The notes under the pieces: model-generated
What the model saw: the letters and a program-made list of their open reading frames with translations, nothing else
Database searches by the model: none
Told to the model about the DNA's origin: nothing
Shown: positions 9,062 through 47,112 of the stretch, piece by piece
Numbering within the stretch: the stretch's first letter is position 1
How the letters are laid out: each line of letters opens with the position of its first letter
Program-made: the position numbers and the translations under genes
Source: Acidimicrobiales bacterium
GTDB taxonomy: Bacteria; Actinomycetota; Acidimicrobiia; Acidimicrobiales; SHLQ01
Assembly: GCA_020629635.1 (NCBI GenBank)
Contig: JAHDCX010000011.1
Coordinates: 1 to 64,000, forward strand
Length of the DNA: 64,000 nucleotides
Direction of reading: 5' to 3'

Positions 9062-9682
9062 ATGGCCCCCGTCCGAGTGACCCTCTGGTCCGACTTCCTT
9101 TGACCATGGTGTTGGGTCGCGGCGGTCCGCCTCGACGAACTCCGCGAACGGATCGGTGATCGAATCGAGATCGAACGACGCAGCTTCCTGTTGCGGGTCG
9201 AGCCCAAGACGGGTGACCACGAACGATTCGTCGCATACACCGAGTCCTGGTTGACCCCAGCCGCCCAAGAGCCCCGTGCGCCGTTTCGGGTGTGGTCGTC
9301 GGACGAACGCCAACCGGCATCGAGCATTCCTGCCCAAGTGGCGTTTCGGCTCGTTTCTTCCGCGTGGCCGGATCACGCCGAGGCCTATCACCACGCGTTG
9401 ATGACGGCGTACTTCGTCGACAACCGCAACATCGCTGACGCGGAGAATCTGATCGACATCGCCGAGTCGGTCGGCGTGCCGGGGGACGAGCTCCGTGAGC
9501 TGGCCGCCGCCGAGACCGAGGCGACGACACAACTCGTCATCGACGACCACAACTCGGCGATCGAGTCCGGAGTCACCGCCGTCCCGACAATCGTGCTCGA
9601 CGATGCCGTCGCAGTCCCTGGCGCGCAACCGGTGGAGACCTGGGAGCGATTGATCACACGAATCGAGTCCGCTCGGGCATGA
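9062..9682 (+). CDS. DsbA/FrnE-like thiol oxidoreductase, candidate selenoprotein (TGA = Sec14)
   Basis: Reading from ATG 9062, which has a strong AAGGTGAGG ribosome-binding site a few bases upstream, gives MAPVRVTLWSDFL, then TGA (9101-9103), then PWCWVAAVRLDELRERIGDR and on without break to 9682. Homologous DsbA/FrnE proteins have CPWC exactly here, so the TGA replaces the first active-site Cys and yields UPWC. The cis-Pro loop (SGVTAVPTIVLDD) is intact near the C-terminus. A hairpin at 9116-9136 fits a bacterial SECIS. Starting after the TGA, as an automatic caller would, removes the redox motif. The protein has 206 residues with no signal peptide. Alternative: a nonsense mutation, but frame and motif conservation argue against it. 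Confidence 0.82.
9116..9136 (+). promoter_or_regulatory. SECIS-like hairpin downstream of TGA at 9101
   Basis: The RNA can fold as GUCG/CGAC (4 bp), one C-U mismatch, GGCG/CGCC (4 bp) and a three-base loop GUC at 9125-9127. Twenty-one bases separate the UGA from the loop, and the loop begins with G. Both match the general bacterial SECIS description (apical loop about 16-37 nt after UGA, G in the first loop positions). The element lies inside the coding sequence, as expected for bacteria. Confidence 0.65.
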
Positions 9683-43257: not shown

Positions 43258-45402
43258 TCAGGTCACGTTGGTGTCTGCCCCCAACGTGACTCGACCGGCG
43301 GCGGCGTGAACGGTGACCTCGGTCCCGGTCTCGATGGCGCGGGTGGCTCCTCGCACGTTGGTGACCGCCGGGAGGCCGAGCTCCCGGACGAGGATCGAGC
43401 CGTGAGAGAGGTCGCCGCCGATCTCGACGACCACGGCGTCGACCATCTGCAGGGTGGAGATCCACCCGGCGTCGATCGACCGGGCAACCAGCACGACCGA
43501 CTCGTCGGACACGCGTTCCGGAGGCGCGGTGGCCGGTTCGTCGAGCACCCATGCCGTCCCCGTCACCGTGCCCGTCGTGAGCGCAATACCGGTGAGGTCG
43601 CCTTCGGCCAGCTCGTCGTTCCACACCGACGGATCGTCGTGCAGTCCCACCACATGGGGCATGTCGATCGCGGCGTGTTCGGCACGCTCGACCTCCCGTG
43701 CTGACCAGAAGGCGGCGTCAGGAACCCAACCCGAGTCCAGTTGACGGACCTCATCGGTCGTGAGCAACCACAGGTCGTCCACGGTCCGGAACACGCCGCG
43801 CTCGACCGCGTCCCCGGCGAGCGCCGCGCCGGCGCGACGGACTGCAGCAAAGGCTCGCATCGACTCGTGGCGATAACGCTCGCGTGCCGCCATCGGCTGG
43901 ACGCAGAGCCACCACAGCGGAAGCGTCAGCCACCCCTTCATGGTGCGGTTCGGCGGAGACGTCGACAGTGCCGGGGCATGGCCGCCAGACGCCAACAACG
44001 AAGGATCGTCGGCGTAACGGGGACGAGCGATGTCGGATTCGAACACGCCTCGATGGCCCCACTCCTCGAGAAAGTCTGCGATTGCGCGAGGCGATCGGTC
44101 GGCGCCGAGTGCCCGCACGGCGTCGGCAAGTTCGGCGGTGATCGTGCGATGACGCGACGCATGTTCGTGCAACGTTCCGGCCGCCCGCAGCGCAGACATC
44201 GGCGGGCCGATCGCGCTGGAGAGGGGGAACATGCCGGTGACGAGCTTCACGTGGGCGGCGCGCAGATCGTCGACGAAGGCCGAGAACGTCGTGGCCGCGG
44301 GCGTCCCGATGCGGGCCACCTCACGTTCGTTGCGACGCGACCGCACGACGGCAACGATCTGGGCCCACCCCAGTCGGATGAGCGACGGAATCGAGCGGGC
44401 GACCCGCACTGGCTGCGCCGGTACGTCACGCCCTGATCCTCCACCGATCGAATCGGCGACGAGCGCGGTCGGCAAACCGAGCTCGCGCATCATGTCCTCG
44501 AGAAGCGAGAGGTTGATCAACGGTCGCCCGAGCTTCACGTGCAGGAAGTCTCGGTCGGCAGGTAGGCCGGGCACCCGCTGGCGATACCAGTCGAAGAGCT
44601 CGGGGCCGGCATCTGCAATGGCGGTCGCCATCAGGGTCGACGGGAGGGGTGGCAGGATCTCGGCGTGGTTGGCTGCCGTGAGCACCTGGTCGCGGAGCGG
44701 CGCAGCCGTGATCGGGCGGATCTGGACGATCCAACAAGTGTCGCCGTCGTCGGCCCACTCGATGTCCCACGGCTCGTCGCCGAACGCCGATCGCACCTCG
44801 GCCAGAAGATGTTGGAGGCGACGTTTCCACCCTGGCTGCGCCTGCTCGAGGCGGGGAAGCTCGAGCCTGTCGCCCTCGACCTCGCCGCTGACGAGCTTGT
44901 CCGCCGTCCCCGCAGAAACGTTCACGATGTCGTCGTAGGTGCCCGGCTCACTGAACGCCACGCCCGCACGGCTGGCGTCCACCATCGCCATCACGAGGAC
45001 GTCGGTCCGGAAAGCGCCGTCTCGGCGGTCGGCGGAGCTGCGGACACGATCGATGGCGCCGCCGAGCTCGCCGACGGGCACGTGCAGCTCGGATTCGAAC
45101 CACCCGGCGAGGCTCTCCGCGGCGCCGTCCTCGGCACCGAAGGCCGAGCGGACGGCGCACGCCGCGATGTGCTGGCCGGCGAACCACCCTCGCAGCGCTG
45201 CAAGGTCTGCTTCAGTCGGTGACACGTCGCTTGGCACCACAACACCGGCGGGTACTGCGAGATCCGACTCGGCGGCCCGGTCGAGCAGCGCGGCCTTGGG
45301 GGCAATGCCGCGGCCCGCGGCTTCGCCCGACCCGAGCGTCACGAACGGACGCGGGGCAGGCTCAGGTGTTGCGGAGTTCTTCTGCGAGTTGGGCCACCAC
45401 AC
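43258..45402 (-). CDS. PEP-utilising synthase-like protein (rifampin phosphotransferase/PPDK-like)
   Basis: 714 residues. The N-terminal half is an ATP-grasp PPDK-type domain (AAGRGIAPKAALLDRAAESD, CAVRSAFGAEDGAAESLAGW, WDIEWADDGDTCWIVQIRPI). The end is the swivelling PEP-utiliser domain with VVEIGGDLSHGSILVRELGL carrying the phospho-accepting His. The middle about 350 residues fit rifampin phosphotransferase-like proteins. It transfers phosphate from ATP or PEP to an unknown acceptor. GTG 45402 has GAGGAA upstream and overlaps the hydrolase 3' end. The tail VTLGADTNVT is encoded by a type A repeat. Confidence 0.75.
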   Translation of the reverse strand: MWWPNSQKNSATPEPAPRPFVTLGSGEAAGRGIAPKAALLDRAAESDLAVPAGVVVPSDVSPTEADLAALRGWFAGQHIAACAVRSAFGAEDGAAESLAGWFESELHVPVGELGGAIDRVRSSADRRDGAFRTDVLVMAMVDASRAGVAFSEPGTYDDIVNVSAGTADKLVSGEVEGDRLELPRLEQAQPGWKRRLQHLLAEVRSAFGDEPWDIEWADDGDTCWIVQIRPITAAPLRDQVLTAANHAEILPPLPSTLMATAIADAGPELFDWYRQRVPGLPADRDFLHVKLGRPLINLSLLEDMMRELGLPTALVADSIGGGSGRDVPAQPVRVARSIPSLIRLGWAQIVAVVRSRRNEREVARIGTPAATTFSAFVDDLRAAHVKLVTGMFPLSSAIGPPMSALRAAGTLHEHASRHRTITAELADAVRALGADRSPRAIADFLEEWGHRGVFESDIARPRYADDPSLLASGGHAPALSTSPPNRTMKGWLTLPLWWLCVQPMAARERYRHESMRAFAAVRRAGAALAGDAVERGVFRTVDDLWLLTTDEVRQLDSGWVPDAAFWSAREVERAEHAAIDMPHVVGLHDDPSVWNDELAEGDLTGIALTTGTVTGTAWVLDEPATAPPERVSDESVVLVARSIDAGWISTLQMVDAVVVEIGGDLSHGSILVRELGLPAVTNVRGATRAIETGTEVTVHAAAGRVTLGADTNVT
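43261..43290 (-). repeat. Palindromic repeat, type A, at 3' end of the PEP-utiliser gene
   Basis: About 30 bp with GTCACGTTGG at one end and CCAACGTGAC at the other, around TGTCTGCCC. In the gene's direction it encodes RVTLGADTNVT and then the stop. Same family as 40635, 49776 and 50441. Confidence 0.75.
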
Positions 45403-46096
45403 GGGCGTATTCCTCGGGTTGTTCGAGCATGGGGAAGTGGTCCCAACCTGGATGGATCACTCGGCGGCCCTCGGGGACCTTGGCGGCGATCGAGTCGACC
45501 TGCTTGGACTTCAGCACTCGATCGTGTTCGCCCCAGAGAAGGACGGACGGGACCCCGGTGACGGGCGCAACGGATTCGAACCAGTCGGCGGTGATGATCT
45601 CGAACATCAGTCCGAACGCCGCGCAGTCGGCGTACCCGTCGAAGAACCGGTCAATGTCGTGATCGGGGGCCCCGGTCGGGAAGAAGAGCCGGCGCCACAG
45701 TGGTCTCGGCAGCTTGGCAGCGATGAGACGACGGATCGTCTCTCGGACGATCGTCGTCGACATGATCCGCGGGAAGAGCCGTGAGTCGAGGTCTGCACCA
45801 ACGGGGGCATGCAGGATGAAGCCCGAGACGAGTTCGGGTCTCCGGCTGACGAGGTCGAGGGCGATCGAGCCGCCGATGCCGTGGCTCAGGAGAACGGGAG
45901 GTTCGCCGCCGGCGATCAGTTCGCCAAGCCGATCGGCGTAGGTCGGGACCGAGTCGACGTCGGGGTCCAGCGGTACGCCGTTGAAGCCCGGCAGGTCGAT
46001 CGCTTCGAGCGTGACCCCAGCGGTCATGAACTCGGCCATCCTGGCAAAGCGAGTGCTTCCTCCGCCGTTTCCGTGGACGGCAACGATGCGAGTCAC
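45362..46096 (-). CDS. Alpha/beta-hydrolase
   Basis: 244 residues: RIVAVHGNGGGSTRFARMAE (oxyanion loop), PPVLLSHGIGGSIALDLVSR, where SHGIGG occupies the nucleophile-elbow position with His-Gly-Ile-Gly rather than the usual GxSxG, and LLWGEHDRVL (Asp) with a late His (HPGWDHFPMLEQP). The missing Ser at the elbow suggests an atypical or non-serine hydrolase. GTG 46096 overlaps the stop of the upstream thioredoxin-fold gene (GTGA). Confidence 0.72.
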   Translation of the reverse strand: MTRIVAVHGNGGGSTRFARMAEFMTAGVTLEAIDLPGFNGVPLDPDVDSVPTYADRLGELIAGGEPPVLLSHGIGGSIALDLVSRRPELVSGFILHAPVGADLDSRLFPRIMSTTIVRETIRRLIAAKLPRPLWRRLFFPTGAPDHDIDRFFDGYADCAAFGLMFEIITADWFESVAPVTGVPSVLLWGEHDRVLKSKQVDSIAAKVPEGRRVIHPGWDHFPMLEQPEEYARVVAQLAEELRNT

Positions 46097-46614
46097 GATG
46101 CTCCAATCAGCTCGAAGAGGTCGGTGGGGTCGGGATGGTCGCCTGCGTGTTCGCCGCGATGCACGGTGGTGAAGGCGCCATCGTCGATGGAGATGACCGT
46201 TGGCATCGTCCACGGATCGCCGATCTTGCGGCCGATGCGATGGCCCTGGAAGGTCGCCCGAACTCCCGCAATCCACGATCGAAGTCCGAACATCTCGCGC
46301 CATCCGCCTCGTTCGACCCCAAAGGTCGTGTACAACGCACCGTCAGGATCGGGCACGGCGATCGCGTCCAGATCGAGGTCGGCGAAGAACTGGTCGAACT
46401 GGTCAGTGGCGCCCTGATAGGCGAAGACGATGGCCGGAGGGGTCTCTTTCGCGTCTCGTGCGGCAGCGAACTCGCTCACCATCTGACGACGAAACAGTCA
46501 ACCGAAGTGGCGAAGGAAGACGAGCAGCGTGGGACCGTGCTGCGCGTCGACGAACTCCCCGAGCGTCGAACCGGCACCAGCACCGGCGAGGGGGACATCA
46601 CGCCATGTCGTCAT
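46093..46614 (-). CDS. AAED1/PRXL2C-like thioredoxin-fold protein, candidate selenoprotein (TGA = Sec39)
   Basis: From ATG 46614 the frame reads TLLVFLRHFG, then TGA (46500-46498), then LFRRQMVSEFAAARDAKETP and on to the stop at 46093 with no change of frame. Homologues of the AAED1/peroxiredoxin-like family carry Cys after the conserved RHFx, so TGA replaces the catalytic Cys; the usual second Cys is Arg here (R42). The rest matches the family (VPDPDGALYTTFGVERGGWR, PTVISIDDGAFTTVHRG). A SECIS-like hairpin follows at 46462-46480. Without readthrough, either half alone lacks a fold. It is coupled to the hydrolase gene by GTGA. Confidence 0.8.
46462..46480 (-). promoter_or_regulatory. SECIS-like hairpin downstream of TGA at 46498
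   Basis: The RNA can form AGCG/CGCU with loop AGUU, a bulged G below it, and a lower GGU/GCC stem. Twenty-five bases separate UGA from the loop, and a G is the second loop base. Both fit the bacterial SECIS description and parallel the hairpin of the DsbA-like gene. Confidence 0.6.
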
Positions 46615-46710
46615 GGCTCCATGCTGGGTGCTCAACGCTGCGCACGTCGGTTCGAACCGGTGTGACGCCGGGCCAGTTCGAGTGCGCGATCTCCGTGTCA
46701 GAATCAAGCG

Positions 46711-47112
46711 ATGGCGCACCCAAAGAACTTCGACGACGACGATCCGATCCTCGCGAAGGTGCGGGAGGTCGCGCTTGCCTTCCCGGAGGCAGCGGAGAAA
46801 GTCAGCCACGGTCGGCCGTGCTTCTTCACGAAGAAGATCTTCTGCATCTACGGCGCCGCGGTGAAGGGCGACGAGTGGGTGCAACATCCACAGTCGATCC
46901 TGGTTCTGCCCGACGAGGACGAACGACATGCCCTCCTCGACGACGAACGTGGATTCGTGCCGGCCTATTGGGGCCCGTACGGCTGGATCGGCATCGACCT
47001 CGACGCCGCAACCGACTGGGACGAGATCGCCGAACTCCTCGAAGACAGCTTCCGAGCCACCGCCCCCAAACGCGCCATCACCACCCTCGACATGGGGTCA
47101 GGTCTGACATAG
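46711..47112 (+). CDS. YjbR/MmcQ-family protein (DUF419)
   Basis: 133 residues: ILAKVREVALAFPEAAEKVS, HGRPCFFTKKIFCIYG, DERGFVPAYWGPYGWIGIDL and LLEDSFRATAPKRA are typical of the YjbR fold (CyaY-like). Proposed to bind DNA; exact function unknown. Its last six residues, MGSGLT, and the stop TAG are supplied by a type B repeat element at 47092. Confidence 0.8.
   Translation: MAHPKNFDDDDPILAKVREVALAFPEAAEKVSHGRPCFFTKKIFCIYGAAVKGDEWVQHPQSILVLPDEDERHALLDDERGFVPAYWGPYGWIGIDLDAATDWDEIAELLEDSFRATAPKRAITTLDMGSGLT

Follow-up and report, generated by a model that had tools for sequence, protein, structure and literature searches.

An in-frame TGA in a peroxiredoxin-like gene of an Acidimicrobiales bacterium almost certainly specifies selenocysteine (Sec) at position 39 of a functional selenoprotein, as judged from comparison with homologous sequences. 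The gene is found on the minus strand of the window, the 64,000-nucleotide stretch of DNA analyzed here, which belongs to contig C13 in a genome of 4.45 Mb. Two further genes, for an alpha/beta hydrolase and a PEP-synthase-like enzyme, follow the selenoprotein gene in a conserved operon, an arrangement overlooked in the original prediction of this selenoprotein. The explanation that best accommodates all of the observations jointly, and which is probably correct, is that of a PRXL2/SelL-related protein whose Sec39 is supplied by the cell's own machinery, whose translation is coupled to the start of the hydrolase gene, and which cycles through one Sec with the help of an external thiol.

A Reading Frame Interrupted by UGA

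The gene occupies positions 46093–46614 (minus strand, terminal TGA at 46093–46095 included) and encodes a SelL-related, PRXL2-like redox protein of 173 residues. Translation of the minus strand from the ATG at 46614 gives MTTWRDVPLAG...LVFLRHFG-TGA-LFRRQMVSEF..., in which 38 residues are followed by TGA as codon 39 (46500–46498) and then by 134 residues that stay open up to the terminal TGA. The original prediction was correct in its coordinates, in its RHFG-U motif and in the continuity of the frame from 46614 to 46093. A possible ribosome-binding site, GGAG at 46617–46620 on the minus strand, lies two bases upstream of the start codon, and the divergent neighbor of the selenoprotein gene, a YjbR gene, begins at 46711. 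The active-site motif is ULFR, with the Arg42 codon at 46489–46491 (minus strand) in the +3 position, and the entire protein is devoid of Cys. A scan for promoters and terminators found nothing, and searches of IMG/VR, PLSDB and INPHARED returned no matches pointing to a phage or plasmid origin.

Exchange of Sec and Cys at a Single Column

The in-frame TGA (46498–46500, minus strand) aligns with TGA or Cys codons of homologs, and conservation is present on both of its sides. In an order-wide search, 23 of 297 genomes gave a match, mostly with exactly one TGA which, where present and read on the correct strand, always fell in the motif R-H/Y-x-x-U. A class-wide search matched 70 of 395 genomes, with a single in-frame TGA at 68 of 84 match places; these are counts of TGA, the position of which was read directly only for a subset of loci. 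A scan of genome contigs contributed 31 loci. The nearest relatives are L072 (60% identity, ULFYRQ) and L073 (59%, ULFYRE, from an uncultured Ilumatobacter), both from the contig scan, and L020 (54%, ULFYRQ), from the order-wide search; all three carry TGA in the same aligned column. A clade of Acidimicrobiia with UxxP motifs (ULFPKE or ULFPRE) also has TGA in this column. Cys forms read CLFTR in Acidimicrobiales and CLFS in Ignavibacteria and their relatives, and the motif is CxxC or UxxC in Chloroflexi, Acidobacteria and Thermoleophilia. Across the alignment the Sec39 column is invariant, holding Cys or Sec only, which bears out the expectation in the original prediction that homologs would have Cys there. 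It is this comparative evidence, an exchange of TGA and Cys at the same column in many genomes, that exceeds chance.

It is extremely improbable that the TGA is a true stop in a decaying Cys gene or the product of a sequencing error. Such readings would suit the patchy distribution of the gene within its genus, where it is absent from ten other genomes searched, and the Arg at +3, a form found in this genome alone. However, independent genomes with 54–60% protein identity share the same TGA in an otherwise intact frame, and these close relatives show no frameshifts or other decay, which the original prediction had named as a sign of a pseudogene. The invariant residues are kept on either side of the TGA, as the original prediction had argued; the frame extends as far as the GTGA shared with the downstream gene, and the genome has a Sec system. 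It is also very unlikely that the locus makes two products, with translation stopping at TGA39 after a short leader peptide and restarting at ATG 46482. An ATG-started ORF of 129 residues does exist at 46093–46482, and gene finders would probably annotate the locus in this manner, but the restarted product would lose the first strand and the RHxG-U motif, which is invariant in the family, and Cys homologs read straight through. On the strength of the TGAs in relatives and the operon overlap, all three readings (pseudogene, restart and sequencing error) were discarded; in practice the relatives' TGAs already refute the pseudogene.

The tree of the family requires at least five changes between Sec and Cys and at least three between Cys and other residues at +3 by parsimony, with several deep forks poorly supported. 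The gene groups with L072 (96/86) among the UxxY sequences, and the deeper order is uncertain. Since several deep forks are poorly supported, no claim is made on whether Sec was gained before or after the second Cys was lost.

Sec Synthesis and Insertion Genes

The genome encodes genes for Sec synthesis and insertion, all of which score above cut-offs. These are selA (C28:65725–66858, 394.5 bits), selB just behind selA (C28:66882–67952, 280.8 bits), selD on the same contig as the window (L010, G000:C13:133404–134318, 362.7 bits, with one in-frame TGA), and a single tRNA-Sec (65.1 bits, above the Rfam cut-off) named tRNA-SeC(tca) by ARAGORN. The original prediction had regarded a lack of Sec machinery as grounds for abandoning its reading; selA, selB, selD and tRNA-Sec were all found. 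Together with the TGA/Cys exchange in homologs, this machinery supports the selenoprotein reading as first proposed. From the observed exchange, machinery and gene structure, we infer that Sec is incorporated at UGA39 in the cell.

Among the family genomes tested, selA was found in all 16 with a Sec form, this one included, vs. 8 of 14 with a Cys form (Fisher p = 0.005, relatedness uncorrected). In one of the Sec-form genomes (G559), selA is in two pieces. Three loci from Acidobacteria (L083, L084, and L087) encode Cys forms of the redox protein, yet their genomes carry selA; the same loci have a further set of common neighbors upstream.

RNA-Level Signals Downstream of the UGA

Bacterial SECIS elements have been described by a loop of 3–9 nt, a G in the first two loop positions, a spacing of 16–37 nt and a minimum free energy of −7.5 or lower (PMC13188914, Fig. 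2). The original prediction placed a SECIS-like hairpin 25 nt after the TGA, and a hairpin is indeed present there, with the core GGUGAGCG-AGUU-CGCUGCC at 46462–46480 (minus strand) and a loop, AGUU at 46469–46472, which starts 25 nt after the TGA. It satisfies the published constraints (PMC13188914), but its stability is no better than that of synonymous controls: 25% of synonymous recodings give a fold of equal or greater stability, rising to 66% under a strict stem rule. Relative to dinucleotide shuffles the hairpin has a z score of −1.35, and hairpin energies are flat between Sec and Cys members (p = 0.56). Taken alone the hairpin is weak evidence, with a stability within the range of chance, and it was not used as proof because several stability tests gave no significance.

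In the three nearest relatives (L072, L073, and L020), a stem likewise occupies this place and its loop opens with AGUU. The UxxP clade mostly carries GAGGTC-N6-GACCTC (or GATCTC), the loop lying 18 nt after the TGA and beginning GU in all members except L081. A better test than stability is codon identity at matching residues. Among 11 Sec sequences, the window spanning codons +3 to +15 downstream of the TGA was the most constrained of 193, a constraint at the RNA level in the Sec group taken together. Over codons +1 to +13, the observed codon identity was 0.72 vs. 0.52 expected in the Sec sequences, and 0.51 vs. 0.45, with no peak, in the Cys sequences. This synonymous constraint comes mainly from the UxxP clade and does not stand out in the four UxxR/Y sequences alone.

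A Divergent PRXL2-Like Protein

An AlphaFold2 model of the protein, with Cys substituted for Sec, reached a pLDDT of 95.8 and a pTM of 0.91. The best fold match in the PDB (Foldseek, VIA-align 2) is human PRXL2B, a prostamide/prostaglandin F synthase (PDB 9us9, 9usa), with Z 16.1 and an rmsd of 3.0 over 154 residues (TM 0.70). A profile search likewise ranked PRXL2B first (E = 4.8e-7), with Sec39 paired to the first active-site Cys of PRXL2B and Arg42 to the second; PrxQ/Bcp-type peroxiredoxins came next. The modeled thioredoxin-like fold is nearest to PRXL2B but is missing the CxxC/UxxC pair of the PRXL2 (PRXL2A/B/C) superfamily. At 15% identity, PRXL2B differs in having CxxC and no Sec, and its substrate is not transferable to the bacterial protein.

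Among named families, the closest is NCBIfam NF040769 (SelL-related redox protein), which the protein matches with 103.9 bits against a cut-off of 120, over positions 17–171 of the 173 in the model. The relatives L072 (107.8) and L082 (118.5) also fall below 120, and L084 (141.6) and L091 (132.3) exceed it. The model is matched at nearly its whole length by all 30 aligned relatives, the present protein included. Pfam AhpC-TSA_2 (PF13911) gave 17.1 bits against a gathering cut-off of 27, and 28 of the 30 aligned relatives match this family at E ≤ 0.001. The protein resembles NF040769 in its full-length match but scores below the cut-off and is without the second active-site Cys; on these sequence scores it is best described as a divergent relative of the SelL-related family, not as a certified member. 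The original prediction called the protein AAED1-like; its closest named family, within the PRXL2/AhpC-TSA_2 superfamily, is NF040769, and its best solved match is PRXL2B. A literature search found no paper naming the NF040769 family.

Other Sec-containing proteins of this type have been described. The eukaryotic selenoproteins SelL and SelU carry UxxU and UxxC, respectively. Compared by general description, SelL and SelU (PRXL2A-type) are, by established knowledge, Sec-containing and peroxiredoxin-like proteins of a related type, but they depend on a different SECIS and insertion system. SelL has been called Prx-like (PMC2398784). Bacterial selenoproteins of the superfamily are already known as the AhpC/TSA family (pfam13911/cd02970), with the motif UxxS (PMC9312934; PMC13188914). 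This family likewise has Sec in the first motif position; compared by listed motif, it has UxxS, whereas the present protein has UxxR and its nearest Sec relatives UxxY and UxxP.

Operon With a Hydrolase and a PEP-Synthase-Like Enzyme

The second gene of the operon encodes an alpha/beta hydrolase (Abhydrolase_6; 45362–46096, minus strand), the GTG start of which overlaps the selenoprotein stop (GTGA). The third (43258–45402, minus strand) encodes a PEP-synthase-like enzyme with PPDK_N and PEP-utilizers mobile domains, which keeps the phospho-His motif in GGDLSHGSI and is distant from all named enzymes. Its homology starts near residue 18–20, and the true start may be slightly downstream of 45402.

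The hydrolase gene is directly behind the redox gene in 18 of 32 loci, and the two overlap as ATGA or GTGA in 15 of the 21 relatives read. The PEP-synthase-like gene was found in 15 of 32 loci, some contigs ending before reaching it. These partners occur in Acidimicrobiia, Thermoleophilia, Chloroflexi and Acidobacteria, with Sec and Cys forms alike, and no other neighboring gene is as widely common to the loci (L072–L095). In L093, a single open frame fuses the hydrolase and PEP-synthase-like parts, and similar long ORFs are found in L081 and L082.

Probable Catalysis Without a Resolving Cys

At +3 this protein has Arg, the three nearest sequences have Tyr, the sister clade has Pro and the Cys forms of Acidimicrobiales have Thr. 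In PRXL2B and many distant relatives this position is Cys, the resolving residue of the UxxC/CxxC motif. The original prediction was right that Arg replaces the second Cys, but this loss is not specific to the gene and spans a group of Acidimicrobiia with UxxP, UxxY and UxxR. Several UxxP and UxxY relatives have no Cys at all, or one elsewhere.

Since the protein contains no Cys, it is likely to be a one-Sec redox catalyst that is reset by an external thiol, with cycle, reductant and substrate as proposed here. SelA, SelB, SelD and tRNA-Sec of the cell would insert Sec at UGA39 of the thioredoxin-fold protein, and translation would run through to the stop that overlaps the start of the hydrolase gene, the two probably being coupled. 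The Sec39 selenolate would then attack an oxidized substrate, which may be a peroxide, an endoperoxide or a disulfide, perhaps one handled by the hydrolase and PEP-synthase-like pair. Sec39 would become a selenenic acid or a selenenyl sulfide, to be reduced by an external thiol such as mycothiol with mycoredoxin, or thioredoxin. The genome encodes an MshA-like protein of full length (391.8 bits) along with proteins that resemble mycoredoxin (73.3 bits at most); as all of these are under curated cut-offs, mycothiol is considered a candidate reductant only.

Rather less likely is that the selenoprotein is not peroxidase-like, and that its lone Sec serves as a thiol/selenol carrier or dedicated redox partner of the hydrolase and PEP-synthase-like enzyme in a small-molecule pathway. 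Such a role would fit the close operon linkage to both genes seen in Actinomycetota, Chloroflexota and Acidobacteriota, and also the frame of L093 that joins the two partners; human PRXL2B is known to reduce a specific endoperoxide. However, enzymes in which Sec or Cys has no resolving partner are frequently peroxidases that depend on an external thiol for their reset, as is established for 1-Cys peroxiredoxins and GPx.

It is about as likely as not that, in this Acidimicrobiia group (UxxP/UxxY/UxxR), the PRXL2-type enzyme is a one-Sec catalyst with no resolving thiol in the usual position and carries out the seleno-redox step in a three-gene pathway not described before, alongside the alpha/beta hydrolase and the ATP-dependent PEP-synthase-like enzyme; relatives in other phyla would use UxxC or CxxC in this pathway. 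The conservation of the operon suggests that bacterial PRXL2-type proteins share a pathway with two partner enzymes. Neither the UxxR/UxxY/UxxP group without a resolving thiol, nor its abundance in Acidimicrobiia, nor the operon turned up in a literature search, which also gave no relevant paper on selenoproteins of these bacteria; most subscription journals lay outside its coverage. The motifs CxxC, UxxC, CxxS, CxxT, UxxP, UxxY and UxxR form a natural series within one related and often operon-linked family, which makes it testable whether Sec lets an enzyme do without a resolving thiol. Acidimicrobiia emerge as a class with many PRXL2-type selenoproteins, whose genes are truncated at the TGA by ordinary gene callers.

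Further Candidate Selenoproteins

The SelD protein of this genome, with its single in-frame TGA, is probably another selenoprotein. Within the window, the plus-strand gene at 9062–9682 is probably the first candidate of the original prediction. Its product belongs to the DsbA family (Pfam DSBA, 84.6 bits), and an in-frame TGA lies at the active site, WSDFL-U-PWCW (UPWC). More PRXL2/AhpC-TSA_2-like groups with UxxC were seen in the class (L026–L041 and L051–L071), in motifs such as RHFGULxCREHAAQLR, RHLAULPCQEH and RYYGUxPC.
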